Shown here piece by piece: positions 5,339-32,958 of a stretch of 39,434 bases of DNA (position 1 is the first letter of the stretch; the number at the start of each line of letters is the position of its first letter). The position numbers and the translations under genes were made by a program. This DNA is from an uncultured Lachnospiraceae bacterium (GTDB taxonomy: Bacteria > Bacillota > Clostridia > Lachnospirales > Lachnospiraceae). The notes beneath the pieces are model-generated. The model was not told the origin of the DNA, ran no database searches, and worked only from the letters and a program-made list of their open reading frames with translations. The stretch spans positions 1 to 39,434 of the forward strand of contig CAMWLV010000013.1 in NCBI GenBank assembly GCA_947175175.1, read 5' to 3'.

Positions 5339-6166
5339 ATGGAACAGATTTTTAAATACCCGAGAACCAGGCATCTTGAAGGTTCTAAGGCACAATTGGG
5401 TGACGAAGACCTAAAATGTGTAAGATTAGATGAGATCAAGGATAAATACTTAGTCCTTGAAGAAAAAGTAGACGGCGCCAACTGCGGCATCAGTTTTGGC
5501 AGCGATGGAAAGATGTATCTACAAAGCCGCGGTCACTTCTTAAACGGCGGATATGGTGAACGCCAGTTTGATTTATTTAAACTCTGGACGGGCTGCTTTG
5601 AGGACAGACTGCGCCGACTGCTGGGAGACAGATATGTCATGTACGGTGAATGGCTGTACGCAAAGCATACTGTATTTTATGACAGGCTGCCTCACTATTT
5701 CATGGAGTTTGATATTTTTGACAAAAAGGAACAGCGCTTTTATTCCACCCGTAAACGCAGGGAGTTCCTTGGAAATGCCCCTTTTATCTGCTCTGTCCGT
5801 GTATTGACAAAAGGATACTTCGAGACATTGGGAGACATTGAAAAATGGATTGGCGCAAGCCTTTTTATTTCCGGGGAGGCAAATAACAGCTTTCTTGCAC
5901 AATGCCAGAAAAGCGGAGTTAATTCCGAACAAGCCATTTGCCAGACCGATCTGACAGGAATCATGGAAGGTATTTATATCAAGGTAGAGGACGGAGATTA
6001 TGTAACCGACCGCCTGAAGTTTGTGCGGGGTTCTTTCCTCAACACGATTCTTGATTCAGAAAGTCATTGGGTAAGCCGTCCGATCATCGCCAATTGTCTG
6101 GCAGACGGAGTTGACTTATTTGCTATGCAGGAAGGCGGGGAATCCAATGAAGCAGGAAATTCTTAA
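5339..6166 (+). CDS. RNA ligase family protein (ATP-dependent polynucleotide ligase)
   Basis: This 275-residue protein has the ordered motifs of covalent nucleotidyltransferases. Motif I is EEKVDGANCG, with the adenylated Lys at about 43. LQSRGHFL follows at about 61-68, YGEWLYAKHT at about 102-111 and EFDIFDK at about 123-129. Motif IV is EGIYIKVE (about 210-217) and motif V is DRLKFVR (about 224-230). It should seal 3'-OH and 5'-phosphate RNA ends through a ligase-AMP intermediate in the cytosol. The gene overlaps the next one by 20 bases. That gene encodes an HD-Pnk end-healing enzyme, so the two form a heal-and-seal RNA repair unit. AGGAGG lies 5 bases before the ATG. The biological RNA substrate, for example a cleaved tRNA, is not known. 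Confidence 0.85.
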   Translation: MEQIFKYPRTRHLEGSKAQLGDEDLKCVRLDEIKDKYLVLEEKVDGANCGISFGSDGKMYLQSRGHFLNGGYGERQFDLFKLWTGCFEDRLRRLLGDRYVMYGEWLYAKHTVFYDRLPHYFMEFDIFDKKEQRFYSTRKRREFLGNAPFICSVRVLTKGYFETLGDIEKWIGASLFISGEANNSFLAQCQKSGVNSEQAICQTDLTGIMEGIYIKVEDGDYVTDRLKFVRGSFLNTILDSESHWVSRPIIANCLADGVDLFAMQEGGESNEAGNS

Positions 6167-7286
6167 AGAAATCCGCAGCAATGGTTTTTCTTTCCATCAG
6201 CTCTCTGTCCGTTATCCTGAGTTATACTTGTTGAAAAATATTCCCCAAGATCCAGAGTATCACGGAGAAGGAGATGTATACAACCACACCGAAATGGTAT
6301 GTGAAAAGCTGCTGGTACTTCCTAAATGGAAGGGATTAGAAAAAGGAGAACAGGAACTTTTATTCCTGGCAGCTGCTTTCCATGATATTGGGAAAATATC
6401 CTGCACGAAACAGGAAGACGGAAAATGGATATCGCCAAAGCATACCATAATAGGGGAAAAGGTATTCCGCCGAATGGTCTACAGGAACGCGGAACTGTTT
6501 GGTCTGACCTTCCATCAAAGAGAAATGACGGCGAAACTGATTCGATATCATGGACTGCCTGTATGGTTCTGGACGAAAGAACGAACCGAGTTTGACTTAT
6601 TGAAAGCGGCAGAAAGTATTCCTTTGCGGCTTTTATATCTGCTTTCCAAAGCAGACATACAGGGACGAATTGCAAAGGAGCCTGGACAGTTGGAAGAACA
6701 GGTGGAATTATTTGCAGACTATGCAAAGGAATTGGGCATATGGAAGAAACCATATGCATTTGCGAACCCCTACACAAAATATCAATATTTTCATAAGGAA
6801 GACCTGTGGCATGATGCTGCATTATATGATGATACGGAATTTGATGTAATTTTAATGTCAGGGCTGCCTCTGGCGGGAAAAGACAGCTGGATCAATCGAC
6901 ATGGCATGGGAATGCCCGTCATCTCCCTTGACAGAATCCGCGGACAGTTAGGCGTTCCGCCTACAAAAAATTCTGGCAGAGTTGTTCAGACTGCTATGGA
7001 ACAGGCGAGAACCCTTTTGCGACAAAAGAAATCATTTATTTGGAATGCGACGAATATCATTCAGGAAACCAGACAGAAACTGGTCGAACTCTTCGCAGGA
7101 TACGGTGCTCGGGTACATATTCAGTATCTGGAAGTGCCTTATCAGGAGCTGCTTTCCAGAAACCAAAAAAGGGAACGATATATCCCAGAACCTGTTTTGG
7201 AAGATATGATTCGAAAACTGGAACTGCCGACGCCTTGGGAGGCATATGAAGTAACTATAGTTTCCCCTGAAAACACTGGGGATTAA
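6147..7286 (+). CDS. HD-Pnk: HD phosphoesterase fused to a 5'-OH polynucleotide kinase
   Basis: This 379-residue two-domain protein has an N-terminal HD phosphohydrolase module: YNHT (His about 47), FHDIGK (His-Asp about 79-80), KHT (about 99), RYHGLP (His about 135) and KADIQGR (Asp about 170). The C-terminal module is a P-loop kinase: GLPLAGKDSW (about 239-248), then SLDRIRGQLG (Asp about 262) and a lid-like region NQKRERYIPE. The same architecture in Runella slithyformis HD-Pnk is known to remove 2',3'-phosphates and phosphorylate 5'-OH ends, which makes ends fit for ligation. The ATG at 6147 lies inside the ligase gene's last codons after AGGAAGGCGGGG, so translation is probably coupled. 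An upstream in-frame TTG at 6111 is less likely. A weak hairpin terminator follows. Confidence 0.85.
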   Translation: MKQEILKEIRSNGFSFHQLSVRYPELYLLKNIPQDPEYHGEGDVYNHTEMVCEKLLVLPKWKGLEKGEQELLFLAAAFHDIGKISCTKQEDGKWISPKHTIIGEKVFRRMVYRNAELFGLTFHQREMTAKLIRYHGLPVWFWTKERTEFDLLKAAESIPLRLLYLLSKADIQGRIAKEPGQLEEQVELFADYAKELGIWKKPYAFANPYTKYQYFHKEDLWHDAALYDDTEFDVILMSGLPLAGKDSWINRHGMGMPVISLDRIRGQLGVPPTKNSGRVVQTAMEQARTLLRQKKSFIWNATNIIQETRQKLVELFAGYGARVHIQYLEVPYQELLSRNQKRERYIPEPVLEDMIRKLELPTPWEAYEVTIVSPENTGD

Positions 7287-8225: not shown

Positions 8226-8693
8226 TCATTTTTTCAGTCCCATATACCTTTTTGTCTCCTCTGTTGAATCAATGCAGGGAATCTTTTGCACAAACGCATC
8301 AAAATCTTCATTTCCATAGTATTCTCTCACAACCTGTCTGATCACCTCCAGCGAAACAATCCCGCGCACCTGCGGTGTAAACACTCCAAAGGGCGTCTCC
8401 AGCTGAACCCTCTGTGTCATCTGCTCCTTTTCCTTATTGATCAATTCATATGTACGGAAATCCCCATTCGGCAGGTCAATGCGTGTCTCCCCGATAAACT
8501 GATCGTCCACACCATAAAATTGCAAAATCGCATCAGCTGATTGAAGGATCACAAAATCTTCTTCTCCTCTATCGATCAAAAGGATAAATCTGTCGATATC
8601 CTCATACAGAACACACTCCTCCTGATATCCTGATGCAAGCTCCACATCCACTACACGTTCTTCCTGAAACAACTTCTTTATCTCCATTTCCAT
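8226..8693 (-). CDS. Conserved-looking protein of unknown function (155 aa)
   Basis: I do not recognise this family. The 155-residue protein is acidic and soluble, with alternating hydrophobic residues that suggest a beta-rich N-terminal half (ECVLYEDIDRFILLIDRGEEDFVILQ). The C-terminal part is more helical (SLEVIRQVVREYYGNEDFDAFVQ). There is no signal peptide or membrane segment. It starts 7 bases after the MoxR stop codon, so it is almost certainly co-translated with the MoxR/VWA operon and may be a small accessory or adaptor. An in-frame ATG at 8687 has better spacing to GAGGG than the one at 8693, so the start is uncertain by two codons. Confidence 0.65.
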   Translation of the reverse strand: MEMEIKKLFQEERVVDVELASGYQEECVLYEDIDRFILLIDRGEEDFVILQSADAILQFYGVDDQFIGETRIDLPNGDFRTYELINKEKEQMTQRVQLETPFGVFTPQVRGIVSLEVIRQVVREYYGNEDFDAFVQKIPCIDSTEETKRYMGLKK

Positions 8694-8700
8694 CCGCCCT

Positions 8701-10212
8701 CTATTTCATCAACTCGTCAATCTCCGCCAATATATCCTTCTTGCGCTCAGAAAACAGCATGTCCTTGTTGTGTTTAAAATATGCCTGACAACCATATTTC
8801 CCGATAAAATGCGCCGAATAGCTGTTTGCAGTAAGCTCCGTCACCAAAATGAGCAATTCCTGACTGCCCATCTCAAAAGCTTCCTCGCAGAACGCAAACA
8901 CATTCGTCAGATTACTGTCCGTCTGCGAGACAAGTTTTGTGAGTGCCTTTTTTCTCTTGTCAAAATCGGCTTTCAATAATTTAAATGCTGCGTCCCCGCT
9001 CGCCGGAGCTTTCTGGGCGATCAGTTCTAACTGCTCATCCAAGGCAGCAATTGTGAGATTCAGTATGTACTCGCGGTCTGCGGAGAGATTCCCCGCTCTC
9101 TTTCCGACAGAAATCTCCTTGCGCTCTGCTGAGATCTGCCGCTTGACTACCTCCAGGAAATCCTTTTCGATCACAAAATCCGCCCGCATCAGTTTCAGGC
9201 AGTTTACCAATTCCATGACCGCCCCCTCCTGTGCGAATACATCGCGGAGCGTACCAATCAGGGCATCTGTCAGCAGACCCAGCAATGACAGACGCTCGTC
9301 AAATTTTGCCGCCTTTGCGCGCTTGACAATCTCCTTTCCAGCCTTTCCGGCGAGAATCTTGTCAACCTGGTAATCTGACCTGTACTTTTTAAACAAGTCG
9401 TAGTACACTGCAAAGCTCTTGGCAATTTTTTTGTTCTGCAGATACTGTACTACGAGCTGCTCCGTGACAGGAATATCCTTTTGTTCATATAATTTTACCA
9501 TGTCAGAGAGGTCACTCCAACCGCGGGCAGTCACAAAGCTTTTGCCGTCCACAGTGGTTTCTATTTTATAAAAGTCGTCCTTTTTAATATCCAGATAAGT
9601 CGTGATCGCGGGGTGCGTCCCCTTGACATAGGCGTATTCCTTCCAGACCTCATAATCGGCTTCCACGTCAATCCGCTTCAATCTGTCCCATGTCACAATG
9701 TCAAACTCGCGCACAGAATTGTTGTACTCCGGGGGATTTCCCGCAGTGACGACAATCCACCCACTGGGTACGTGATGACGTCCAAATGTCTTGTACTGCA
9801 GAAACTGCAGCATTGCAGGGGCAAGCGTTTCCGAGACACAATTAATCTCGTCAAGGAACAAAATCCCCTCCTTAAAACCCGTCCCCTCAATTACATCATA
9901 AACTGAAGCAATGATCTCGCTCATCGTGTATTCACTGACACTGTACTCCTCACCGCCGTAATTTTTCTTGACGATAAACGGGAGTCCCAGCGCCGACTGA
10001 CGGGTGTGGTGTGTCATGGAATAGCTGACCAGACCGATCTGCAGTTCCTGTGCGATCTGTTCCATGATCGCTGTTTTTCCAATGCCCGGTGCACCCATAA
10101 GAAATATGGGACGCTGCCTTTCGATGGGAATCACAAAATTCCCAAACTGGTCTTTTGTCAGATAAGCTGACACCGCGTTTTTAATATCTTCCTTTGCCTG
10201 CTTGATGTTCAT
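8701..10212 (-). CDS. MoxR-type AAA+ ATPase
   Basis: This 503-residue ATPase has Walker A GAPGIGKT (about 40-47), Walker B ILFLDEIN (about 117-124) and a sensor-1 region VVTAGNPPEYN. A second half of about 230 residues (helical, charged) is longer than in minimal MoxR proteins. MoxR ATPases typically act as chaperones with VWA-domain partners, to activate metal- or substrate-binding proteins. Here a VWA-like DUF2201 gene sits at the head of the same operon, with four LRR paralogues between them. The ATG at 10212 is chosen, with AAGGAG 12-13 bases upstream; a GTG at 10245 is also in frame. A fold-back repeat lies just upstream, between this gene and the last LRR gene. Confidence 0.85.
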   Translation of the reverse strand: MNIKQAKEDIKNAVSAYLTKDQFGNFVIPIERQRPIFLMGAPGIGKTAIMEQIAQELQIGLVSYSMTHHTRQSALGLPFIVKKNYGGEEYSVSEYTMSEIIASVYDVIEGTGFKEGILFLDEINCVSETLAPAMLQFLQYKTFGRHHVPSGWIVVTAGNPPEYNNSVREFDIVTWDRLKRIDVEADYEVWKEYAYVKGTHPAITTYLDIKKDDFYKIETTVDGKSFVTARGWSDLSDMVKLYEQKDIPVTEQLVVQYLQNKKIAKSFAVYYDLFKKYRSDYQVDKILAGKAGKEIVKRAKAAKFDERLSLLGLLTDALIGTLRDVFAQEGAVMELVNCLKLMRADFVIEKDFLEVVKRQISAERKEISVGKRAGNLSADREYILNLTIAALDEQLELIAQKAPASGDAAFKLLKADFDKRKKALTKLVSQTDSNLTNVFAFCEEAFEMGSQELLILVTELTANSYSAHFIGKYGCQAYFKHNKDMLFSERKKDILAEIDELMK

Positions 10213-10245
10213 ATTGTCATCATGCTCCTTTCTTTCTCTGCACAC

Positions 10246-10323
10246 TTAGGATCTGTCATGAAATAAACTTTCATTTTGACTTGCCTAAATCAGAATTAAA
10301 AGTTATTTCATAACAGCTCCTTA
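10246..10323. repeat. Compact MITE-family hairpin between LRR and MoxR genes
   Basis: The left arm (TTAGGATCTGTCATGAAATAA, 10246-10266) pairs with the right arm (TTATTTCATAACAGCTCCTTA, 10303-10323) with few mismatches, and the spacer is about 36 bases. The arms resemble the ends of the element at 1431-1596. The 78-bp element fills most of the gap between the two genes, so the operon mRNA would carry a stable hairpin here. Confidence 0.6.
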
Positions 10324-10327
10324 TATT

Positions 10328-12064
10328 TCAAACAATTTCATTGTCACTGTTCTTAATACGAAAGTGTTTTTCTCTGCAATAGGTTTCTGTCTTACTTCCC
10401 TTGGGACAGTATATAAACAGTTTTTGATTGTAGGGGAACACCTCTGCCGAGAGACGCTCTGATTGGTCAGACAGCAGCCGCTGAACAGATTTGGGCATCC
10501 TGATCTCTCTCAGTTTATCGCACGCATTAAACGCATGTTCTTCGATTTCAAGAACTCCTTCACAGACGCATACCTTTTCAAGCTCCATGCAGCCAAAAAA
10601 TGCTTTCTTTCCGATTTTCCTGACTGTCCCAGGTATTGTAATGTTTTTCAATGATCTACAATCCCAAAATGCACATTCACTGATCTCAGAAACGCCCTCA
10701 GGAATGTTAATCTCCTTCAAGGCCCACATCTGGCTGAAAGCATAACTGCGGATCTGCCGAATCGTTCTGGGCAGCGTAATGTTCGTAATCCTGCGATGCT
10801 GTTGAATATGTTTCAAGCCTCCCGCGGAATGATAATCCCCCACACAGACAGCATTCCCTGCAAATGCGCCGATCTCGATTGCTGAGACTATACTTTTACC
10901 AATCTTTTCCGGCACAATGACCTTCTCATTCCTGCCTTTGTAATTGGTGATGATCAGTGTGCCGTCCTCTCTTTTTTTGTAGCTCCATATCTTCCTTAAC
11001 TCGGCAACAGAATTGGGAGAAGCATTCAGTTCACGCATCAGCTTCTTTTCCGCTTTTTCAGCCTCCGCAGCAAGATCCGCAGTGCGGTTCTTATAATCGA
11101 GCAGCCATGCCGTTGATTCCATTTTGCCGTTTTGGGCAGCATACTCGATCATCTCGTCGCGCTTGCGTGGAAGTTTTAGCCAGCCATACTGCGCGACAAT
11201 CTCAAGGCAGGCAACATTCTCATAGAAAATCATCTCCTGCATCAGTCTTTTCTTATTCATTTTGGACTGGTTAAAATGATCCAGAAAGAATCCCAAATAT
11301 TCCGGCGAAAAGAATCGGTTGTGATTTACATGACAGAGCCAGTCAGTATAATGCAGCTTTTTGTCTTTAGACGCCTCCAAAGAATCAATTGTTGACTGTT
11401 CCCTGCCAAGTTCTGAGATCAATGCGGACATGACGCGGATAAAGTTTTCATCTCTCAGATGCTCTATCAGACTACAATACGCAAACCACGCGTTGCCCCC
11501 GCCGCCCTCTGTCAGCATTTTTTGCTTCTCATCAGAGATTGTGACTCCCTTTCCTTTCAACGCGGCAGTCATATTCTTATCATCAGTGAGGATTGCAAAA
11601 TACAAAAAGTCTCCCGGACGAAAACAGACTTTCTCCGCATTGTCGCAAAGATATTCCACAACTTGGATCAGTTCCTCCTCACAGACCGGCTTTAGCGGAT
11701 TGCCTTTCCGGTCAGCCAGCTTCTCAATATACCTTTTCCATATGTAATCACCTGTTATATGGATATTTTTTATCAAAAATAAGATAAAAAAGTCTGGCAG
11801 GTATGTCGCAAGTTCATTTTCAAATATCTGCGGAAATAAAGCGCGGACTGCCTCCATATCTTGGTGAAAGGACGCGCCGTTTTCGACCAGAACTTTCACC
11901 ATGTCCAATCCGCGAAAACGACCTGCAATCCCCAGAATGTGGGCAGTAAATACACCTTTTCCCAACTTCTGGTAAAGCTTTGCGACCTCGGCAGGTGTGT
12001 CGTTGATCACAGCCTGTTCCAGCGCCGCGATTCCATCTGCTTTGGCCTTTGTTAAACTACTCAT
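10328..12064 (-). CDS. Ankyrin-like/BspA-type LRR protein, paralogue with 4 repeats
   Basis: This 578-residue protein is the last of four tandem paralogues in transcription order. The N-terminal half has an ankyrin-like motif (GIAGRFRGLDMVKVLVENGA, about 45-64) and a long helical region. A second ankyrin-like stretch (KKRDEMI-type, with TAWLLDYKNRTAD) lies near 305-335. After a conserved IWSYKK...TNYKG linker come four 23-residue LRR_5 repeats (pattern I.IP..V..I...AF..C..L) from about 440 to 535. A C-terminal cap follows (YCPKGSKTETYC). It has no signal peptide, unlike surface BspA proteins. It starts 18 bases after the previous stop with AAAGGAG in the gap. A receptor or recognition role is inferred from architecture. 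Confidence 0.75.
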   Translation of the reverse strand: MSSLTKAKADGIAALEQAVINDTPAEVAKLYQKLGKGVFTAHILGIAGRFRGLDMVKVLVENGASFHQDMEAVRALFPQIFENELATYLPDFFILFLIKNIHITGDYIWKRYIEKLADRKGNPLKPVCEEELIQVVEYLCDNAEKVCFRPGDFLYFAILTDDKNMTAALKGKGVTISDEKQKMLTEGGGGNAWFAYCSLIEHLRDENFIRVMSALISELGREQSTIDSLEASKDKKLHYTDWLCHVNHNRFFSPEYLGFFLDHFNQSKMNKKRLMQEMIFYENVACLEIVAQYGWLKLPRKRDEMIEYAAQNGKMESTAWLLDYKNRTADLAAEAEKAEKKLMRELNASPNSVAELRKIWSYKKREDGTLIITNYKGRNEKVIVPEKIGKSIVSAIEIGAFAGNAVCVGDYHSAGGLKHIQQHRRITNITLPRTIRQIRSYAFSQMWALKEINIPEGVSEISECAFWDCRSLKNITIPGTVRKIGKKAFFGCMELEKVCVCEGVLEIEEHAFNACDKLREIRMPKSVQRLLSDQSERLSAEVFPYNQKLFIYCPKGSKTETYCREKHFRIKNSDNEIV

Positions 12065-12081
12065 CTGTTTATTTGTCTCCT

Positions 12082-13974
12082 TTAGTCAACACTGTTCTCA
12101 AACCGAAATCCCTTTTCCCTGCAGTACGCTTCTGCCTTGCTTCCATCTGGACAGTATATGGTCACTTTCGGGCAGCCGTGGAATATCTCAATGGTAATGT
12201 CAATATTTGTTTGAACAGTCAGCAAACGCTGAACTGATTCTGGCATCTCGACCTTTTCCAAATTGCTGCAGTCTTTAAATGCGCACTCCCCTATTTCAAG
12301 AACACCCTCACAGATATGCACTTCCTTAAGCCCGCTGCAGTTCCCAAATGCCCACTCTCCTATTTTTTCTACTGTGCCGGGGATCGTGAGTTTTTTTAAG
12401 GAAGTACATCCTTTGAAAGCATACTTGTCAATTTCCCTGACGCCTTCACAGATACACACTTCCTCAAGCTGACTGCAACTCGCAAACGCATACCTTCCGA
12501 TTTTCTCCACTGTGCCGGGGATTGTAATACTTTTCAAAGATTTACACTCACTAAATGTATATTCATCAATTTTCTGCACCGTGCCAGGAATCAGAATGCT
12601 TTGCAAAGCCTTACATCCATTGAATGCAGATTCACCAATTTCCTTAACACTCTCGGGAATGTTGATTTCTTCCAATGCCCACATATCCGCGAAGGCACTC
12701 CTGCCAATAGACTGAATCGTCCCTGGCATTGTAATCTTTGTGATCTTACGATGTTGATGTATTTGATCCCATGTCAGATAAAAGTTGACATAGGAGCCTC
12801 TAAATACATTCACATCAATTGTCGTGACGATTCCTTTGCCAATCTTTTGTGGAACCGTTACTTCAATCTCCTTACCTTTATAGTTGGTGATCATCAGTGT
12901 ACCATCTTCCTGCTTTTTATAGCTCCATATCTTTTTTAATTCGGCGACAGAATCCGGCGAAGCGTTCAGCTCGCGCATCATCTTCTTCTCGGCTTTTTCC
13001 TGTTCGGCGGCAAAATCAGCGGTGCGGTTTTTAAAGTCAAGCAGCCATGCAAGCGCCTCCGTCTTTTTGTTCTGGGAAGCGTACTCGATCATCTCATCGC
13101 GCTTCTTTGGCACGTCAAGCCAGCCCGCTTTCTCAATGACCGGCAGCGCATCCAGGGCGTCCTCGTCAATCAGTCCGCGTATCATTTTATACTTGTTCAT
13201 CTTATCCTGCCTGAAATGGGACAGGAAATAGTCAAATATGCCAATATCCCGAAAACGCATTTTCGTGATATCAAACATTTTCTCCGTATAGTAAAACGGC
13301 TTTCCATCAAGCTCCATGGCAAGCTGCTGCATCACTTCCAGGTAATCCTCATCGGGGAGTTTTCCTGTCATGGCACCATACTCATACCAGTAACCATCCG
13401 TTGCAGCGCCGCCCTCCGTGATCGTCTGAACACGCCTTTCGGAGAGTTTGAAACCGCGTTTTTTCAGTTCCTCATAAATGACGGTATCCCTGGCATAAAT
13501 CGCGTAAAAAAGCATCTCCTCGGGCTGAAACATCAGTTTTTCTTTATTTTGAATCAGATAGTCCAGCACGCGCACCCGCTCCTCATCCGCAAGAAACGGC
13601 AGCGGTTTCCCTGTGTCTCTTTTTGCATTCTTCGTAAATTTCATTCCCTTCATACTGCAGGCGCCTTTTAATCCGCCGCGAAGGATTTTCAACAGGTACA
13701 GCGAGTAATTGGTGCGGTAGTTTGCATACTTCTGACCGATATAACAGCGGTACTTTGTCTCGATTTCCTCCGTCGAAGGAAAATCAAAAGTGATTCCCTT
13801 TTCAAATAATGCCGCTACCATATCCAGCCCCCGAAAGCGGCATGCTAACCCCAGCGCCGGCGCCGACATTTCCACATCGCCAAGTTCTTCATATACTTTC
13901 AAAAGCTCCTCGACGGAGCAGTTGATGACCGCCTGCTGCAGCTGCGCGGCCTTTTCCACCTGCGTAAGTTCCAT
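12082..13974 (-). CDS. Ankyrin-like/BspA-type LRR protein, paralogue with 7 repeats
   Basis: This 630-residue protein has the same plan as its neighbours. The N-terminal module begins MELTQVEKAAQLQQAV with an ankyrin-like segment ALGLACRFRGLDMV. A middle module contains AEKKMMRELNASPDSVAELKK. Seven full 23-residue LRR_5 repeats follow, of alternating types: IPGTVEKIG..AF..C and ICEGV.EI..AF..C. The C-terminal cap is YCPDGSKAEAYCREK. The start at 13974 matches the paralogues' first residues and lies 7 bases after GGAGG; upstream in-frame ATGs at 13989 and 13980 are less likely. The gap to the previous stop is only 2 bases, implying coupling. No export signal is present, so it should be cytosolic. 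Confidence 0.75.
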   Translation of the reverse strand: MELTQVEKAAQLQQAVINCSVEELLKVYEELGDVEMSAPALGLACRFRGLDMVAALFEKGITFDFPSTEEIETKYRCYIGQKYANYRTNYSLYLLKILRGGLKGACSMKGMKFTKNAKRDTGKPLPFLADEERVRVLDYLIQNKEKLMFQPEEMLFYAIYARDTVIYEELKKRGFKLSERRVQTITEGGAATDGYWYEYGAMTGKLPDEDYLEVMQQLAMELDGKPFYYTEKMFDITKMRFRDIGIFDYFLSHFRQDKMNKYKMIRGLIDEDALDALPVIEKAGWLDVPKKRDEMIEYASQNKKTEALAWLLDFKNRTADFAAEQEKAEKKMMRELNASPDSVAELKKIWSYKKQEDGTLMITNYKGKEIEVTVPQKIGKGIVTTIDVNVFRGSYVNFYLTWDQIHQHRKITKITMPGTIQSIGRSAFADMWALEEINIPESVKEIGESAFNGCKALQSILIPGTVQKIDEYTFSECKSLKSITIPGTVEKIGRYAFASCSQLEEVCICEGVREIDKYAFKGCTSLKKLTIPGTVEKIGEWAFGNCSGLKEVHICEGVLEIGECAFKDCSNLEKVEMPESVQRLLTVQTNIDITIEIFHGCPKVTIYCPDGSKAEAYCREKGFRFENSVD

Positions 13975-13976
13975 CT

Positions 13977-15989
13977 TCATTCCTCCCATACAAACTGATT
14001 CTTAATATTCTTTCTCTTACAATACGCCTCCGCCCTGCTCCCCTTTGGGCAGATTACAGTCAGATTCGGACATTCTTCAAACACATCATAATGGTACTGA
14101 CCTTGATTTTTGCTTCTTATGCGCTGGACGGACTTTGGTATGAAAACCTCCTTTAGATTCTGGCATCTGGCAAATGCGCCCTCCTCAATTTCCTTCACAC
14201 CTTCACAGATCTGTACACTTTCCAACATCTTACAATACATAAACCCGTCCTTTTTAATTACTTTCACAGTACCTGGCACTATGAGGGTTTTCAAGGAAAT
14301 GCATCCACCAAATGCATATTCGCCGATTTCCTCCACGCCCTCACAGATACACAATTCTTCCAGTTTCAAGCATTGTGAAAATGCATGGTCGCCAATTTTT
14401 TTCACATTTTCAGGGACAATAATCCTTTTCAAAGAACCACATTGCACAAATGCCATCTTTTCTATTTCATGAACCTTTCTGGGAATCACAATCTCCTCCA
14501 GTGCCATGCGGAAAAAAGTACATGCACTTATTTTCTCTATGCCGTCAGGGATTGTAATCCTTTTTAAGGAACTACATCCGGAAAATGCCGAACAGCCAAT
14601 CTCCTTCACTCCTTTGGGAATATGGATCTCCTTTAATGACCGCATCTTATCAAAAGCGCCTGCGCCAATATACTGAATTGTCTCTGGCAGCACGATCTTC
14701 GTTATTCCCTGATGCAGCTCGATCTGCTCATCGGTAACTCTCGGATTGAAACGGTCTGTTACGGATAATCTGCGCCTATCTTCTGCTTTCATGTAAGTTT
14801 GTCCCGTAAATGCCGCTTTTCCGATTGCCGTGACAACACTTTTCCCGATTCTTTCCGGCACAATGACCTCTATAGCCGTACCCTTATAATTCGTGATGGT
14901 GAGTGTGCCGCCCTCTTCTTTCCTATAGCTCCATATTTTCTTTAATGAAACAACCGAATCCGGTGCTGCATTCAGCTCGCGCATCATGTTTTTTTCAGCC
15001 TTTTCCTGCTCCACGGCAATATCGGTCGTGCGGTTTTTGTATTCGAGCAGCCATGCAAGCGACTCCGTTTTGCCGTTTTCCGTGGCATACGCTATCATCT
15101 CATCGCGCTTTTTCGGCAGTTTCAGCCACCCCTCCTGCTCAATGACGGGAAGTGACTCCGCGGCATCTGCGTCAATCAAATCACGTATGATCTGATACTT
15201 TTTCATTTTTTTCTGATTGAAATGAGCAAGGAAAAACGCAAATACATCTATATCGTGAAAACGATTTTTGGTAATATCAAACATCTTTTCCGTATAACGA
15301 AACGGCTTTTCCTGCATCTCCAGATAAAGCTGCTGCATGACTCTGATATAATCCTTCTCGGCAAGATTTCTAGTCATGGCACAAAACTCAAACCAGTATC
15401 CGTCTGCCATGATACCCTCTGTAAGCGCGTAGATACGCTTCTCTGAGAGAGTAACATTACGCTTTTTCAGCTCCTCAAAAATGACAGCATCCTTTGCAAA
15501 TATAGCATAAAAAAGCATCTCCTCGGGCTGAAAGGACAGCGCCTCCTTCTTTTCGATCAGATAATTGAGCACTTCGATACGCTCCTCGTCCGCAAGAAAC
15601 GGCAGTGGCTTTCCATCGTCCCTCTTTGCGTTCTTTGCAAATTTCATGCCTTTCAGACAACATGCGCCCTTTATCCCTCCCCGAAAACTTCTGAGCAGGT
15701 ACAGCGAATAATTGGTGCGGTAATTCTCCCTGTAATTCGCATGCTTCTCACCGATATGGCAGTGGTATTTTATTTCGATCTCCTCGGTTGACGGGAAGTC
15801 AAAGACTGCCCCTTTTTCAACCATCGCCTTTACCAGGGCAAGTCCCCGGAAACGACAGGCAAGTCCCAGCGCAGGTGCAGACATTTCCACATAACCAAGC
15901 CCGTCATATATTTTAGAAAATTCCTCAACAGAACTGTTGATCACTGCACGCTCCAAAAGCGCAGCTTTTTCCTCCTGTGCAATCCCCAT
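13977..15989 (-). CDS. Ankyrin-like/BspA-type LRR protein, paralogue with 8 repeats
   Basis: This is the longest paralogue, at 670 residues. The N-terminal module starts MGIAQEEKAALLERAV and contains the ankyrin-like ALGLACRFRGLALVKAMVEKGA. The middle module keeps KKRDEMIAYATENGKTES. Before the repeats it carries an extra loop of roughly 15 residues (TYMKAEDRRRLSVTDRF) absent from the others. It has eight LRR_5 repeats, one of which (ISACTFFRMALEE) is a residue short and lacks the usual Cys. The C-terminal cap reads ICPKGSRAEAYC. AGGGGA lies 6-7 bases before the ATG, and the gap to the upstream paralogue is 45 bases. Length variation lies mainly in repeat number, which suggests expansion by unequal recombination. 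Confidence 0.75.
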   Translation of the reverse strand: MGIAQEEKAALLERAVINSSVEEFSKIYDGLGYVEMSAPALGLACRFRGLALVKAMVEKGAVFDFPSTEEIEIKYHCHIGEKHANYRENYRTNYSLYLLRSFRGGIKGACCLKGMKFAKNAKRDDGKPLPFLADEERIEVLNYLIEKKEALSFQPEEMLFYAIFAKDAVIFEELKKRNVTLSEKRIYALTEGIMADGYWFEFCAMTRNLAEKDYIRVMQQLYLEMQEKPFRYTEKMFDITKNRFHDIDVFAFFLAHFNQKKMKKYQIIRDLIDADAAESLPVIEQEGWLKLPKKRDEMIAYATENGKTESLAWLLEYKNRTTDIAVEQEKAEKNMMRELNAAPDSVVSLKKIWSYRKEEGGTLTITNYKGTAIEVIVPERIGKSVVTAIGKAAFTGQTYMKAEDRRRLSVTDRFNPRVTDEQIELHQGITKIVLPETIQYIGAGAFDKMRSLKEIHIPKGVKEIGCSAFSGCSSLKRITIPDGIEKISACTFFRMALEEIVIPRKVHEIEKMAFVQCGSLKRIIVPENVKKIGDHAFSQCLKLEELCICEGVEEIGEYAFGGCISLKTLIVPGTVKVIKKDGFMYCKMLESVQICEGVKEIEEGAFARCQNLKEVFIPKSVQRIRSKNQGQYHYDVFEECPNLTVICPKGSRAEAYCKRKNIKNQFVWEE

Positions 15990-16034
15990 TATCTTTCCCC
16001 TTTGAATTCCATATACACCATCTATATAATGCTT

Positions 16035-17717
16035 TCAATCATCGCTGTACTGGAAACGTACACGCTTTTCTTTGCAGTATTCCTCTGCTTTGCTCCCTTT
16101 AGGACAGTACACAACTGCTTTAGGACAGTAGTCGAAAATTTCGTATTTGCTGATACCTATTAACATAGTGTTCAGACGCTGAACAGATTTTGGGATTCTA
16201 ATCTCCTGCAGATTGTCACAATTCCAAAATACACACTGGTCTATCTCAAGAACACCCTCACAGACACACACCTTTTCAAGTTTCCTACAATAAGAAAATG
16301 CATCTTTCCCGATTTTCTTTACCGTTCCGGGAATGGTAATTTGTTTCAGGGAAGTACATTTATCAAATGCGTACGCATCAATTTCCTTAACACCTTTTGG
16401 AATGGAAATATCTTTCAATGCCTGCATATCAGAGAAAGCATACTGTCCAATATATTGCAGTGTGTCTGGCAGTATGATCTTTGTAATCCGGTTATGCTGC
16501 TCTGTTTGCTCCGTTGTTACTTTGGGATTTGAATAATCTGCAGCAAATGCCCCCTTTCCAATACCTGTAACAATCCCTTTTCCTATCTTTTCCGGAACCG
16601 TGACCTCGGTATCTGTGCCTTTATAGTTGGTGATCAGCAGCGTTCCGTCCTCCCTTTTCCTATAGCTCCATATCTTCTTTAACGCGGCGACAGAATCCGG
16701 TGCTACATTCAGCTCGCGCATCATCTTTTTCTCCGCTTTTTTCTGTTCCACGGCAAAATCAGCCGTGCGGTTTTTGTAGTCAAGCAGCCAGGCCAGCGAC
16801 TCCGTTTTGCCGTTTTCTGAAGCATATGCAATCATCTCGTCACGTTTCTTCGGTGTCGCAATCCAGTTTTCCCTCTCAATTACTGGCAGGACTTCCGCAG
16901 CATCAATCTCAATCAGACCGCGTATGATCTGATATTTTTTCATCTTCTCCTGCGTAAAGTGAGCGAGGAAAAATTCAAATACTTTGACATCATAAAAGCG
17001 TTTTTTCGTAATCTCATAGAGATTCTCCGTAAAGCGAAACAGCCTTCCGTCCAATTCTGCGGCAAGCTGCTGCATGACCGTAAAGTAATCCGCATCGGAA
17101 AGACGCTGTGTCATAGCAATATACTCCAGCCAATATGCGTCCATCGCTGCATCGACGTCCGTAATCGTATGAACGCGAATCCCGGAGATTCGAACACCAT
17201 ATCGTTTCAATTCCTCCACAATGACAGTGTCCCCAAAATAAATCGCATAATAAAGCATTTCTTCCGGGTGAAAGGATATCTTTTCCCTGTTCTCCAACAG
17301 ACATTTCAATACATTGATACGTCTGTCGTCTGAAAGAAATTCCAGCGGCTCTCCCGTCTCTCTTTCCGCGCTATGACTCAGCGTCATTCCCTTAAAACAA
17401 TATGCCCCTCTTAAATCTTCATCAAAAACCTTCAGCAGATACAGGGAATAATTCGTGCGGTAATTGCCACACTTTCGACCGATATAACAATTGTATGTCT
17501 CCTCAATTCTCCTCTTTGAAGGGAAATCAAAGGAAGCGCCCTTTTGAATCAAAGCCCCTGCCACATCAAGCCCACGGAACCGGCACGCCAGTCCCAGCGC
17601 CGGCGCCGACATTTCCACCTCACCAAGTTCCTCATAAATTTTTAAAAGCTCCTCGACAGAGCCATTGATCACCGCCTGCTGCAGCCGCGCGGCTTTTTCT
17701 TCCTGTGCAATCTCCAT
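16035..17717 (-). CDS. Ankyrin-like/BspA-type LRR protein, paralogue with 4 repeats
   Basis: This 560-residue protein is the first of the four paralogues in transcription order and directly follows the VWA-like gene (15-base gap, with a GGGGGAG ribosome site in it). It begins MEIAQEEKAARLQQAV with ALGLACRFRGLDVAGALIQKG, then the shared helical middle region (KKRDEMIAYASENGKTES). Four LRR_5 repeats run from about residue 420 to 515, and the cap is YCPKGSKAEEYCKEK. Large parts of the N-terminal and middle modules are close to those of the next two genes, so the array arose by recent tandem duplication. No signal peptide or membrane segment is seen. The ligand is unknown. Confidence 0.75.
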   Translation of the reverse strand: MEIAQEEKAARLQQAVINGSVEELLKIYEELGEVEMSAPALGLACRFRGLDVAGALIQKGASFDFPSKRRIEETYNCYIGRKCGNYRTNYSLYLLKVFDEDLRGAYCFKGMTLSHSAERETGEPLEFLSDDRRINVLKCLLENREKISFHPEEMLYYAIYFGDTVIVEELKRYGVRISGIRVHTITDVDAAMDAYWLEYIAMTQRLSDADYFTVMQQLAAELDGRLFRFTENLYEITKKRFYDVKVFEFFLAHFTQEKMKKYQIIRGLIEIDAAEVLPVIERENWIATPKKRDEMIAYASENGKTESLAWLLDYKNRTADFAVEQKKAEKKMMRELNVAPDSVAALKKIWSYRKREDGTLLITNYKGTDTEVTVPEKIGKGIVTGIGKGAFAADYSNPKVTTEQTEQHNRITKIILPDTLQYIGQYAFSDMQALKDISIPKGVKEIDAYAFDKCTSLKQITIPGTVKKIGKDAFSYCRKLEKVCVCEGVLEIDQCVFWNCDNLQEIRIPKSVQRLNTMLIGISKYEIFDYCPKAVVYCPKGSKAEEYCKEKRVRFQYSDD

Positions 17718-17732
17718 ACTCTTCTCCCCCTC

Positions 17733-19097
17733 TCAGATCTCGTCGCTTCTGAGCACTAATTTCATTGCCCATGACGGTACGTCATAATTATTAAAGGAAT
17801 CTTCAATAAATACAAATGCAGTATCATAAGGCGGTTTCTTTTGCGGAAATACGCCACATCCATCCGTAAAATAGATCAGACCTTTCAGATTTTCAAACTC
17901 GTGATTGTCCACCATCGTATTGACATGCTCAAACACAGGTCGGAAATCCGTTCCTCCCAGCCCGTGAAGCTTCATTTTCTTTAGGTAAGCGTCAAACTCC
18001 TCCTGTGATGTGATCTTCGCGTCCTCCTGAATGACTGTGTCGCACTGGATAATGTGCAGGTTGATCTTGGTAAAAAAGCTTTCCGTGCTCTTGAGAATGT
18101 TATATGTTTTCTGCACAAAGGTCTGTACCAGTTCACCCGATGTCGAACCAGATGTGTCGATCGCAACCACAAATTCCCGTATGCGCTTTACTTCCTTGTA
18201 TTCAAGCGGCTCGATCAGGGGCATATCCTCATACAGCTGCAGTCCGTAAGTGTAAAAATTATAGTCAAATTCATCCGGATTGAGCTTCATCACCTCTCCC
18301 CTGACGGCAAATTTTTTGAGAAATTCCGTGTAATCATAGCGCTCCCTGTTCACTTCCCGTAAGTTCTGCGTCAGCAGTCCTGTCTCGGTTCCCCTGCTCT
18401 TGACAAACACTTCCAATTCTGTCTGCATGCGCAGCGCAATGCCCGCCCAGCCTTCCACGAGCAGGATTCGATTGACCGGAATGAGCGCACCTCCGTCAAA
18501 TCCGCCATAGAGCCCCAGCTTTTTCTTCTGTTCTTCCGTCAGATACCAGAGAAAATGATCATCTCCCTTGAATAATAATGACAGTCTTTCTACCAAGTCA
18601 TCGGAAAGCTTCTCACTTAAAAAATAGCTGTAAATTTTTTCCGCGGAAATGGTCTGGATCTTCTTCTTAAAGAGGTCGAAAAACTGAATCTGCTCTTTGG
18701 CTTTCTTGATATTCAGGTAACTCAGCTCCAGATCATTGATCGCACTCTCCACCGCAATATCACACGCCAGATTCCACATATCCTGATTTACAAGGGTGTT
18801 TACAAAAAAATGCTTGAAAACACAATGCAGTACCGTATGAAGAAAATTGCGTATGGGAAGGTTTTCATCCAGCATGTAAGCTTTCAGAATATGTTCCGGA
18901 TCATAGATATAGATCTCCCCGTCGCTTGCCGTAAAAGGCGTTAATTCAGGTTTCGGGGAAATTTTGAATTGATTGAGCGACATATCCATGAACCGCATAT
19001 TGACCAGCAGCTTGTTCTTTGACATCTGGAGAATCTCAGCCGCTATTTTTTCTGTTTTTTTCTGTTTTTCCTGATCAAATTCTTTTTCGTTTGACAA
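17733..19097 (-). CDS. VWA-like DUF2201 protein (degenerate metallopeptidase plus VWA-like domain)
   Basis: This 454-residue protein is the head of the operon. Its N-terminal region matches the putative metallopeptidase part of DUF2201, but the expected HExxH is HTVLH (about 87-91) with a further His at 96. The catalytic Glu is therefore replaced by Thr, and peptidase activity is doubtful. The C-terminal VWA-like domain has a MIDAS-like DTSGS (about 314-318), GGTDFRP (about 381-387) and YFTDGCG (about 409-415), so metal binding should be intact. Such proteins commonly pair with MoxR ATPases, one of which ends this operon. The start is an unusual TTG at 19097 with GAGG about 11 bases upstream; no nearby in-frame ATG fits. 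Confidence 0.8.
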   Translation of the reverse strand: MSNEKEFDQEKQKKTEKIAAEILQMSKNKLLVNMRFMDMSLNQFKISPKPELTPFTASDGEIYIYDPEHILKAYMLDENLPIRNFLHTVLHCVFKHFFVNTLVNQDMWNLACDIAVESAINDLELSYLNIKKAKEQIQFFDLFKKKIQTISAEKIYSYFLSEKLSDDLVERLSLLFKGDDHFLWYLTEEQKKKLGLYGGFDGGALIPVNRILLVEGWAGIALRMQTELEVFVKSRGTETGLLTQNLREVNRERYDYTEFLKKFAVRGEVMKLNPDEFDYNFYTYGLQLYEDMPLIEPLEYKEVKRIREFVVAIDTSGSTSGELVQTFVQKTYNILKSTESFFTKINLHIIQCDTVIQEDAKITSQEEFDAYLKKMKLHGLGGTDFRPVFEHVNTMVDNHEFENLKGLIYFTDGCGVFPQKKPPYDTAFVFIEDSFNNYDVPSWAMKLVLRSDEI

Positions 19098-19150: not shown

Positions 19151-19179
19151 ATTTTACGCCTCCACACTATCACCGTCAA
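19151..19179 (-). promoter_or_regulatory. Promoter of the VWA/LRR/MoxR operon
   Basis: On the minus strand, TTGACG (19174-19179) is followed by a 17-base spacer and TAAAAT (19151-19156). This leaves a leader of about 45 bases before the TTG start at 19097. No other convincing promoter was found between the genes of the operon. Confidence 0.6.
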
Positions 19180-30585: not shown

Positions 30586-32901
30586 TTAATTATTTATCGT
30601 CGAAGCAATCAGCTCCATCTTACCCTGAAGCTGTGCTTTCCCAAAGCCGCTTGGCAGGATAAAATGATCCCCCTTCTTGATCAGCTGTCCGTTGATCAGT
30701 CCATCCCCCTCAACGACACTCATGATCAGAAATGGATAATCCTGTAAAACTTCCATGCTGCCGTCCACATCAAGCTTCCACACCTGATAATAACTGCACG
30801 AGATCAGCTGATTCACTGCATTCTTTGCATCTGCAGAAATGTTGATGACGCTCTCTTCCACTGACTTTGCGGGAACAGTGATGACATCGATACTCTTCTC
30901 GATATGAAGTTCGCGGGGCTTGCCGTTCTGCAGGCGTCCATAATCATATACGCGGTATGTGATGTCCGAATTCTGCTGTGTCTCAAGAATCTCAATGCCG
31001 CCCTTGATCGCGTGGACAGTGCCTGGATCAATCTGGATAAAATCGCCCTTCTTTACAGGGACTTCTCGCAGAAATTCTTCCCATCTGCCATTGCCTATCA
31101 TATCCTCCAGCTCTGCCTTGTCCTTTGCATTATGACCAATCACGAGCGTCGCCCCCTCTGGAGCGTCAAGGATATACCAGCACTCTGTCTTTCCAAAGGA
31201 ACCATTCTCATTCTTTCCGGCATACTCGTCATTCGGGTGCACTTGAATGCTCAGATCATCATTTGCGTCAATGATCTTGATCAAAAGCGGGAATCGATCT
31301 CCTGCCACGTTGCCAAAAAGCTGCGGCTCCTCTGCCCAGAGCTGGCTCAATGTCTTCCCGGCATAAGTGCCCTCTTTTATCGTACAATCCCCATTTGGGT
31401 GCGCGCTCACTGCCCAGCACTCTCCGGTATTTTCTCCCGGAATCTCATATCCCCACTTGCTGCCAAGCTTGTTTCCACCCCAGATCATCTGCTTGAATAC
31501 AGGGTCCATAAACAATATTTCCTTATTCGCATCCACACTGTTCATACTCAATATCCCTCCATTTGTCTCCATTACCTTCTGATACCAGAATGCCGAATCC
31601 TTTGCAATGCGCTTCTGAGTCGCAAAATCCACATAGACGAGACCAAAACGCTCACTATATCCCTTGTCCCACTCAAAATTATCCAGGAAAGTCCACAGGA
31701 AATACCCCCGGATATCAACACCATCATTCACTGCCTTTTGCAGCTGTGACAAATATTTGTCAAGAAAATCAATCCGGTTGCTGTCGTGCACACATCCGTC
31801 AGCAGAAATCTGGTCATGACAAGACATACCATTTTCTGTGATATAGAGCGGTATCTGATAGCGCTCATACAAAAATTTGGTTCCCCAGTATAAGCATTCC
31901 GGCGTTACCGGCCAGTTTGCTGCTGTCTTCGGAAATCCTGCAGGCCTGTCGACATACTCTGGCTTTCCATCATCACCCATTCTGATATAGTAACCATTGT
32001 ATATGTTCTGCCCCATAAAGTCAATCGGCTGGTGAATCAGCTCCATATCCTCGTCTGTGATCTTTGGCAGGTAATCTTTGTATTTCTTGAGTGCCTCATC
32101 CGGATACTTTCCCAAAAGTACCGGATCTGCAAACCATGCCACATTCCATGTCCAGTTCTCGATCGGCTGATCAAAGCCAAAATAAATGCTCCTTGCCGCC
32201 TCGATATCCTCTGGCTTGTCCGTGTAGGGATACGCCACACCACAAGTCGGTGCATATCCGATTTTAACGGGTTGTTTTGCATATTTTCTAAGCTGCTTTA
32301 CTGCATTTCCATGAGCGCGGAGTGCGTTATGTGCGATCTGGAATACCTTCGCTGGCTCCAGCTTCAGTCCCGGCGCATGAACGCCGTTCAAATATCCCAG
32401 TCCTACAAAACACTGTGGCTCATTTAATGTAATGATATACTCTGACAAATCAGTGAAATTCTCCGCAACAATCTTCGCATACTCGCCGAACCACTCGATT
32501 ATATCCTCATTGAGCCAGCCACCCTTGTCCTGTAATGCCTGCGGTAACTCCCAATGATACATCGTAATATATGGCACGATATCGTTTTCTATCATGCACT
32601 GTATCATATCGCGGTAGAGTGCAACCGCTTTTTCATTGATCTTTCCTGTGCCCTCTGGCATAATGCGCGACCAGCTCAGGGAAAAACGGTATGCTTTCAC
32701 ACCCAGAAGGCGCATCATGGCGATATCTTCCTTATACCGATGAATATGGTCACAAGCCACATCTGCATTCTGATCATTATATACTCTGCCTTCCTCGGCA
32801 AAGGTATCCCAGATGCACTTTCCCGCACCGTCCTGCGCATCCCTGCCTTCGATCTGATAGGCACTGCTCGCCACACCCCACACAAAATCTTTTTTGAACA
32901 T
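30586..32901 (-). CDS. Fusion of GH1 beta-glycosidase and class I mannose-6-phosphate isomerase
   Basis: This 771-residue protein joins two normally separate enzymes. Residues 1-452 are a full GH1 glycosidase, with acid/base Glu in TLNEPQ (about 161) and nucleophile Glu in YITENG (about 356). The FEWDKGYSERFG motif fits non-phosphorylated substrates, so beta-glucosidase or beta-mannosidase activity is likely. Residues 453-771 are a complete ManA-type isomerase, with metal ligands in QVHPND (about 553-558), KTECWYIL (Glu about 573) and GTVHAIKGG (His about 630), and the Arg of ITYRVYDYGR (about 650). It converts mannose-6-phosphate to fructose-6-phosphate. AGGAGG lies 8 bases before the ATG at 32901; an upstream GTG-like frame extension to 32955 is rejected. 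It is the last gene of the mannooligosaccharide operon. Confidence 0.9.
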   Translation of the reverse strand: MFKKDFVWGVASSAYQIEGRDAQDGAGKCIWDTFAEEGRVYNDQNADVACDHIHRYKEDIAMMRLLGVKAYRFSLSWSRIMPEGTGKINEKAVALYRDMIQCMIENDIVPYITMYHWELPQALQDKGGWLNEDIIEWFGEYAKIVAENFTDLSEYIITLNEPQCFVGLGYLNGVHAPGLKLEPAKVFQIAHNALRAHGNAVKQLRKYAKQPVKIGYAPTCGVAYPYTDKPEDIEAARSIYFGFDQPIENWTWNVAWFADPVLLGKYPDEALKKYKDYLPKITDEDMELIHQPIDFMGQNIYNGYYIRMGDDGKPEYVDRPAGFPKTAANWPVTPECLYWGTKFLYERYQIPLYITENGMSCHDQISADGCVHDSNRIDFLDKYLSQLQKAVNDGVDIRGYFLWTFLDNFEWDKGYSERFGLVYVDFATQKRIAKDSAFWYQKVMETNGGILSMNSVDANKEILFMDPVFKQMIWGGNKLGSKWGYEIPGENTGECWAVSAHPNGDCTIKEGTYAGKTLSQLWAEEPQLFGNVAGDRFPLLIKIIDANDDLSIQVHPNDEYAGKNENGSFGKTECWYILDAPEGATLVIGHNAKDKAELEDMIGNGRWEEFLREVPVKKGDFIQIDPGTVHAIKGGIEILETQQNSDITYRVYDYGRLQNGKPRELHIEKSIDVITVPAKSVEESVINISADAKNAVNQLISCSYYQVWKLDVDGSMEVLQDYPFLIMSVVEGDGLINGQLIKKGDHFILPSGFGKAQLQGKMELIASTINN
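31543..31560 (-). promoter_or_regulatory. Internal ribosome site and ATG at the ManA domain
   Basis: Within the fused frame, GGAGGG (31555-31560) is followed after 9 bases by an in-frame ATG (31543-31545), exactly where the isomerase part begins (MNSVDANKE, residue 453). This would permit a separate 319-residue ManA to be made from the same mRNA. It may be a relic of the ancestral two-gene arrangement. Confidence 0.55.
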
Positions 32902-32958
32902 TATTCCAACCTCCTGATTTTTGAAAAAACTGACAAGCCTATATAACAATCCCACGTA

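Follow-up and report, generated by a model that had tools for sequence, protein, structure and literature searches.

Pairs of a MoxR-type AAA+ ATPase and a von Willebrand factor A (VWA) protein are widespread, and to our knowledge the choice of their targets is understood in only a few cases. In the parts of the following papers that were available, the VWA protein is described to plug the MoxR ring in NorQD (PMC9976466) and to act as a substrate adaptor in CbbQO (PMC4660213), and MoxR-vWA ternary conflict systems are described with VMAP, iSTAND, FtsH and beta-propeller parts and later with iSTAND2 and TERNS3 (PMC7159879, PMC8195603). Here, a stretch of 39,434 nucleotides from an uncultured Lachnospiraceae bacterium (assembly GCA_947175175.1, contig CAMWLV010000013.1; hereafter the window) was analysed. 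On its minus strand, a DUF2201/VWA gene (17733..19097) and a MoxR-type AAA+ gene (8701..10245) enclose four tandem paralogues with leucine-rich repeats (LRRs), P1 to P4 (16035..17717, 13977..15989, 12082..13989 and 10328..12064). The likeness to the ternary systems lies in linked MoxR AAA+ and vWA genes together with a system-specific third component (PMC7159879, PMC8195603, seen in part); the third component differs, being here a protein composed of LRRs and a helical module, called module X below, and often arrayed. An earlier note on this DNA had proposed that the LRR paralogues are the third partner of one shared MoxR-VWA machine; all of the open reading frames (ORFs) that it named for the three components were present on the minus strand, and the gene order and co-occurrence reported below agree with the proposal.

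Linkage of the paralogues with VWA and MoxR genes

A profile of the N-terminal domain (NTD) of the paralogues was used to scan one genome per species, and 54 NTD loci were obtained outside the window, all of them, going by record titles, in Lachnospiraceae, Oscillospiraceae/Ruminococcaceae and otherwise unassigned Clostridia. VWA and/or MoxR genes were found at 28 of these loci (both in 12, VWA alone in 10 and MoxR alone in 6), and of the rest 17 reached the end of the contig or locus and 9 were free-standing. In 11 of the 12 other loci holding all three components, the genes share one strand and run from VWA through the NTD-LRR genes to MoxR, and the number of NTD-LRR copies in loci with both VWA and MoxR ranged from 1 to 6. 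An unusually long array was present on contig JAAVIE010000097.1 (L047 and L071), with 16 NTD-bearing ORFs of 125-588 residues, many of them shortened, and MoxR at one end.

In six of the 10 loci that have VWA alone, the array extends past the end of the available sequence, and 1.6 kb follows the array in L031. For eight of the nine free-standing loci, the genome does have such a MoxR: L059, L060, L062, L063 and L068 come from the same named isolate as a locus with MoxR, and the genomes of L067, L074 and L083 are matched by the MoxR profile. Two more NTD-LRR genes of the window's own genome lie on another contig, and the stretch of that contig that was read contains neither a VWA nor a MoxR gene. 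The earlier note had named, as outcomes contrary to its proposal, NTD homologues occurring mainly without MoxR/DUF2201 neighbours, or exported paralogues, and neither was observed.

Within the genus, 13 of 38 genomes have the NTD, and 12 of these 13 also have a cognate MoxR (86-100% identity); the other 25 genomes have neither (Fisher p 5e-9). The single NTD genome without cognate MoxR (G005) is 76% complete and is apparently the genome of L031, where a 91% identical VWA gene adjoins the paralogues.

Domain composition of the system proteins

In the VWA protein (454 aa), with DUF2201_N at the N-terminus and VWA at the C-terminus, the Pfam matches to DUF2201 (E 4.5e-13) and DUF2201_N (1.9e-5) were above the cut-off and Pfam VWA itself was below it; DUF2201_N and DUF2201/VWA were the sole domains above or near the cut-off. 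The metallopeptidase Glu is absent from the N-terminal part, where H-x3-H-C-x3-H is retained, as in 10 of 10 aligned relatives. The metal-ion-dependent adhesion site (MIDAS) D-x-S-x-S, T, D is intact, and its residues D314, S316, S318, T383 and D412 are the same in all 10 of the 10 relatives aligned.

The MoxR-type protein is 514 aa long from a GTG start and 503 aa from a conserved ATG at 10212, which leaves 115 bases between the last paralogue and the MoxR start. Pfam AAA_5 (E 5.2e-8) and AAA were above the cut-off and bpMoxR was below it (24.7 against 27). Its ATPase motifs, which we take to be Walker A GAPGIGKT, Walker B LFLDE, sensor-1 N and an arginine-finger-like R, are intact, and G51, P53-G-I-G-K-T58, D132-E133, N170 and R188 were invariant in 10 of 10 aligned relatives.

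The four paralogues share one architecture, composed of a helical NTD, a flexible linker and BspA-type LRRs. P1 has 560 aa with the LRR part at approximately 16035-16673, P2 (670 aa) has the longest LRR part of the four, P3 has 635 aa, and P4 (578 aa) has the most divergent NTD. LRR_5 (Pfam) was matched on all four (E 7.9e-28 to 6.2e-62), in agreement with the BspA-type repeats of the earlier note. The ankyrin-like N-terminal region claimed there was recovered only as weak Pfam and profile matches: all ankyrin Pfam matches were below the curated cut-offs (Ank_3 and Ank on P1, Ank_2 on P4), the best being Ank_3 on P1 with 20.3 bits against a cut-off of 22.3, none were obtained on P2 and P3, and a profile of 63 relatives matched solved ankyrin proteins weakly (E 2e-4 to 6e-4). 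The NTD was predicted, with confidence, as mostly helical. The LRR fold was recovered in the fold comparison, where matches to the LRR part, several solved surface LRR_5 proteins among them, took up the list, so the missing ankyrin entry is no evidence either way.

No strongly hydrophobic N-terminal segment indicating an export signal was found in any of the six system proteins, whereas the upstream lipoprotein used as a control shows one, and no cell-wall anchor motif LPxT[GA] was found in the system proteins. The absence of export signals from the paralogues, as stated in the earlier note, was thereby reproduced.

A possible sigma-70-type operon promoter lies at 19151..19179 on the minus strand (TTGACG, 17 nt, TAAAAT), as a consensus match only, agreeing with the sigma-70-like consensus at 10 of 12 positions in a scan that gave 34 sites against 22.8 +/- 5.6 in shuffles. 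A single promoter for the whole operon, as the earlier note had it, is therefore plausible only.

A wider triad in Clostridia sharing module X

The window's genome carries a second pair (VWA 43% and MoxR 56% identical), followed by a single LRR protein of 314 residues. MoxR genes of this single-copy triad type (54-57% identity) were present in 31 of the 38 genus genomes. Most single-copy LRR proteins carry at their end a helical module of about 75 residues, module X, for which a profile (A4) was made from 18 sequences of single-copy-type triads only, with no array paralogue included. HHalign placed A4 on the stretch 239-319 in the NTD profile (96.3%, E 1.8e-9), and, judged from this alignment, the single-copy module X and the end of the window's NTDs are homologous. 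In the window, A4 matched P1 at 16758..16976, immediately before the LRRs (E 1.6e-5), P2 at 15021..15236 (E 1.9e-4), P3 at 13015..13233 (E 9.5e-6) and P4 at 11069..11305 (E 6.7e-6), all on the minus strand; within the whole genome, its matches were the single-copy partner, these four paralogues and the two NTD-LRR genes on the other contig. In a search restricted to 36 array paralogues, the module profile matched 36 of 36 just before the LRRs (E 1e-10 to 2e-6). Module X stands before the LRRs in the array form and in G303, and after the LRRs in most of the others that were read.

With the MoxR clade called by profile A2 at E<=1e-60, matches to A4 (E<=1e-4) occurred in 22 of the 391 class genomes. 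All 22 belong to the 24 genomes that have the MoxR clade, and none of the 367 others was matched (p 5e-34); the test is partly circular because rows of A4 came from genes beside MoxR in 14 of the 22 positives; the eight positive genomes G079, G139, G232, G274, G303, G329, G399 and G405 contributed no row. LRR_5 is widespread in the class (E<=1e-30 in 51 of 118 genomes), unlike module X, which is confined to MoxR-clade genomes at the threshold used. Of the 24 class genomes that carry the MoxR clade, 17 have the gene encoding the LRR protein with module X (LRR-X) adjoining VWA or MoxR, and in G631, which belongs to the phylum sample and lies outside the class sample, an LRR-X gene of 1177 residues stands beside the VWA-MoxR pair.

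In a MoxR tree of 56 proteins, which remained after removal of identical sequences and of loci listed as duplicates or as overlapping, the array clade formed one branch of 18 sequences (100/99) nested within the triads. The genus arrays joined three Oscillospiraceae/Clostridia sequences (93/88), apart from four others, and the deep order of the tree is unsure because of long branches elsewhere. By these comparisons of sequence, the array form belongs, as one branch, to a wider VWA-MoxR-LRR triad in Clostridia. More distant MoxR-DUF2201 pairs, with no LRR neighbour detected, were observed in L096 (22% and 31% identity, the VWA retaining the HExxH Glu) and L118 (47% and 25%).

Divergence and selection

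From 11 locus sets, 46 reciprocal-best paralogue pairs with an NTD identity of at least 75% were collected, the pairs being non-independent. LRR identity was lower than NTD identity in 43 of the 46 pairs and equal after rounding in three. The ratio of nonsynonymous to synonymous substitution rates (dN/dS), determined for the NTD and LRR parts in 14 hand-picked pairs out of the 46, was 0.02-0.07 for MoxR, 0.04-0.10 for VWA, 0.03-0.29 for the NTD and 0.12-0.41 for the LRRs, and conservation ranked in the order MoxR > VWA > NTD > LRR. Since the LRR values are the highest and yet do not exceed 0.41, the recognition parts change fastest under constraint, and pairwise dN/dS (maximum 0.41) gave no indication that the LRRs of the pairs tested are under positive selection. 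The diversified sensors of the earlier note are a weak reading: the LRRs do change faster than the NTD, VWA and MoxR, but with purifying selection overall. Variation by position within the LRR repeat peaked at positions 15-16, 19-20 and 22 and was middling on the strand. LRR swapping among the paralogues was minor (3 of 46 pairs), and in some pairs dS is higher for the LRRs than for the NTD, a hint of recombination.

Proposed mechanism and alternative explanations

On balance, the system is probably a cytoplasmic MoxR-VWA remodelling machine in which the choice of target is delegated to LRR adaptors or sensors that dock via module X. From the precedents of NorQD and CbbQO, the MoxR protein would form an ATP-driven ring with the VWA protein as its co-chaperone, module X would dock an exchangeable LRR adaptor or sensor onto the VWA/MoxR core, the LRR solenoid would bind the target, and ATP hydrolysis would then remodel the target or the complex. 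That module X is tied to the MoxR clade and changes its side of the LRRs, and that LRR-X is multiplied in arrays and VWA and MoxR are not, would be expected of an adaptor. LRR-X is a single gene in most relatives and multiplied in the window's branch, so that one machine would serve several recognition proteins, some of them encoded elsewhere.

Several observations weigh against this proposal, in addition to the partial circularity of the module X test. The VWA-MoxR pair lies on the opposite strand in L050, the MoxR frame is split in two in L045, and no MoxR was found in the flanks after the VWA-linked arrays L046 (9.5 kb), L052 (5.7 kb) and L049 (2.1 kb); the genome of the free-standing locus L081 gave no match to the MoxR profile. 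LRR-X stands one gene away from the pair in G274 and at a distance of 5-6 kb in G079 and G232, it lies elsewhere in the genome in G329 and G139, and no LRR-X was found for the pairs of G339, at a contig end, and G374, the most divergent one. Weak module X matches (E 4e-4 to 1e-2) were obtained in five genomes without the MoxR clade. The MoxR clade is uncommon, being present in 24 of 391 class genomes and 4 of 299 genomes of the phylum sample, one of them new, and the full NTD was found in the 391-genome class sample only in the window's own genome and as one marginal broken match. Many of the genomes are incomplete metagenome-assembled genomes.

The arrays behind VWA in L046, L049 and L052 contain 4, 9 and 6 NTD-LRR genes, respectively. 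In G329 (L105), the VWA frame is in two ORFs beside MoxR and the sole LRR-X found is on another contig; the system of G329 is possibly decaying.

The main alternative to an adaptor role, which we regard as improbable, is that the LRR-X proteins are clients of the MoxR-VWA pair, which as their dedicated chaperone would fold them or assemble them into a complex, in the way that MoxR pairs bring other protein complexes to maturity. MoxR/VWA pairs are described as maturation or remodelling chaperones in the parts of the sources available (PMC9976466, PMC4660213), the strict co-occurrence suits a client as well as an adaptor, and module X could serve as a client tag; however, 16 NTD-bearing ORFs on one contig, many of them shortened, together with orphan copies, would be odd for a single maturation step, and no other subunit or enzyme is constant beside the arrays compared. 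That the LRR proteins are surface proteins of the ordinary BspA type, lying between MoxR and VWA by accident, is very improbable. LRR_5 is known from many surface proteins, and it is as common in the class as reported above, but the paralogues lack an export signal, and neither the recurrent gene order nor the specificity of module X would be expected from accident.

By analogy with conflict systems, the LRR array might instead sense proteins of phages or other invaders inside the cell, with the MoxR-VWA pair as a threshold switch of the kind put forward for the ternary systems already described, which is possible though rather unlikely. In accordance with defence, the pair has a repeat-rich third partner, the NTD-LRR copy number is variable, the LRRs are the fastest-changing part, the distribution is accessory (12 of 38 genus genomes have the cognate MoxR, compared with 31 of 38 that have the MoxR type found in the single-copy triad), and, by its flanking genes, the locus occupies differing chromosomal sites across subclades, beside uvrC in one and elsewhere in others. 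Against this, no effector domain was found by Pfam on VWA, LRR-X or MoxR, and no constant effector or extra gene was seen beside the 14 array loci compared, several of which are cut by contig ends. NCBIfam gave no defence family above the cut-off, and PADLOC none that was convincing: with PADLOC-DB 2.0.0, MoxR had partial matches only (best IetA, E 4.7e-6 over residues 15-73, the others weaker), P4 had a partial match to PDC-M61A (E 0.0024), and the other five proteins had none. No relative was found in viral contigs, with two peptide patterns for each of the NTD and MoxR profiles, or, for MoxR, in plasmids, the collection of phage records lying outside the search. The window genes nearest to the system, which include uvrC, ftsH and ogt, and a dN/dS of at most 0.41 in the pairs tested also speak against defence.

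Neighbouring genes

The small gene 3' of the MoxR gene (8226..8693, minus strand) was counted as a member in the earlier note and is rejected here as lying outside the conserved unit. It was matched in 11 of the 38 genus genomes, its own included; at nine other loci (L123-L131), the C-terminal half of ORFs of 273-327 aa corresponds to the window's small gene, and the remaining matches listed were on contigs different from those bearing the MoxR genes of the system. In three of these relatives (L128, L129 and L131), a gene of this family follows uvrC immediately on its 3' side, and, by comparison with the longer ORFs, the small gene may be a remnant of the 273-327 aa family. No clean empty site was obtained, the 3' side of uvrC being variable.

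An RNA-repair-like pair was observed on the plus strand at 5339-7286, where an RNA ligase gene (PF09414) is followed by an HD and AAA_33 kinase-like gene; homologues of both near ogt were also present in L037 and L041. On the minus strand, an ORF of 789 residues (30586-32955) fuses glycoside hydrolase family 1 to phosphomannose isomerase and, together with two GH130 genes and a GlcNAc 2-epimerase gene, has the appearance of a mannan utilisation locus. An Rfam scan of the window at gathering scores gave no match.

Comparison with known systems

The layout was taken in the earlier note to recall the published ternary conflict systems; the linked pair with a third component stood, the marker motifs and effectors of those systems were not found, and membership is unproven. 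No effector domain, which in those systems is typically fused to vWA, and no EAD domain was found by Pfam on the window's VWA protein or its partners. Searches with Pfam, NCBIfam and PADLOC gave no VMAP, iSTAND, FtsH, beta-propeller, iSTAND2 or TERNS3 match on the six proteins, the existence of a model for each family being unchecked. VMAP-type MoxR proteins are marked in the N-terminal region by WxhapG and PsWRxa (PMC7159879, seen in part), and these are absent, by reading, from the 39 residues before the P-loop of the window's MoxR, which contain no tryptophan. The P-loop itself is GAPGIGKT, in contrast to the GXXXTAKS frequent in the FtsH and beta-propeller types (PMC7159879, in the part available), and the hosts are Clostridia, in contrast to the actinobacteria, cyanobacteria, planctomycetes, chloroflexi and proteobacteria given in the available parts of the two papers on ternary systems (PMC7159879, PMC8195603).

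No description of an LRR third component of a MoxR-vWA pair was found in the open-licence literature searched: in the available main text of PMC7159879, 'leucine' and 'ankyrin' are absent and 'LRR' occurs once, in a reference, and in the available part of PMC8195603 LRRs are named with other proteins, AP-GTPase and animal ones. We tentatively suggest, as a possibility more doubtful than the remodelling mechanism itself, that an undescribed MoxR-vWA ternary class exists in gut Clostridia, in which interchangeable LRR receptors share a docking module and one ATPase switch, forming a bacterial functional analogue of LRR receptor repertoires that would probably serve the intracellular recognition of foreign or damaged proteins. 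If, as it seems, the choosers of targets are separate LRR proteins with one module in common, from single copies to long arrays, target choice by an AAA+ remodeller would become a modular, testable problem, and a role would be given to BspA-type LRR proteins without export signal, a family usually regarded as surface proteins. The paralogues differ from the BspA-type LRR proteins (for example TpLRR, 6mlx) in having no export signal and in being fused to a helical NTD with module X.

In the immune receptors of the eukaryotic NLR type, LRR recognition is coupled to an NTPase. The likeness is one of analogy only, as the parts are here separate polypeptides, the ATPase is of MoxR type and not STAND, and no effector domain was found. 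Closer in machinery are NorQ-NorD (PMC9976466), CbbQ-CbbO (PMC4660213) and RavA-ViaA (PMC10585395), which, in the parts of the papers available, likewise combine an AAA+ motor and a VWA protein that comes into contact with the substrate. Compared with these three, the VWA protein of the present system belongs to the DUF2201 family, with a metallopeptidase-like N-terminus minus the catalytic Glu, and the choice of target is apparently handed to separate LRR proteins.

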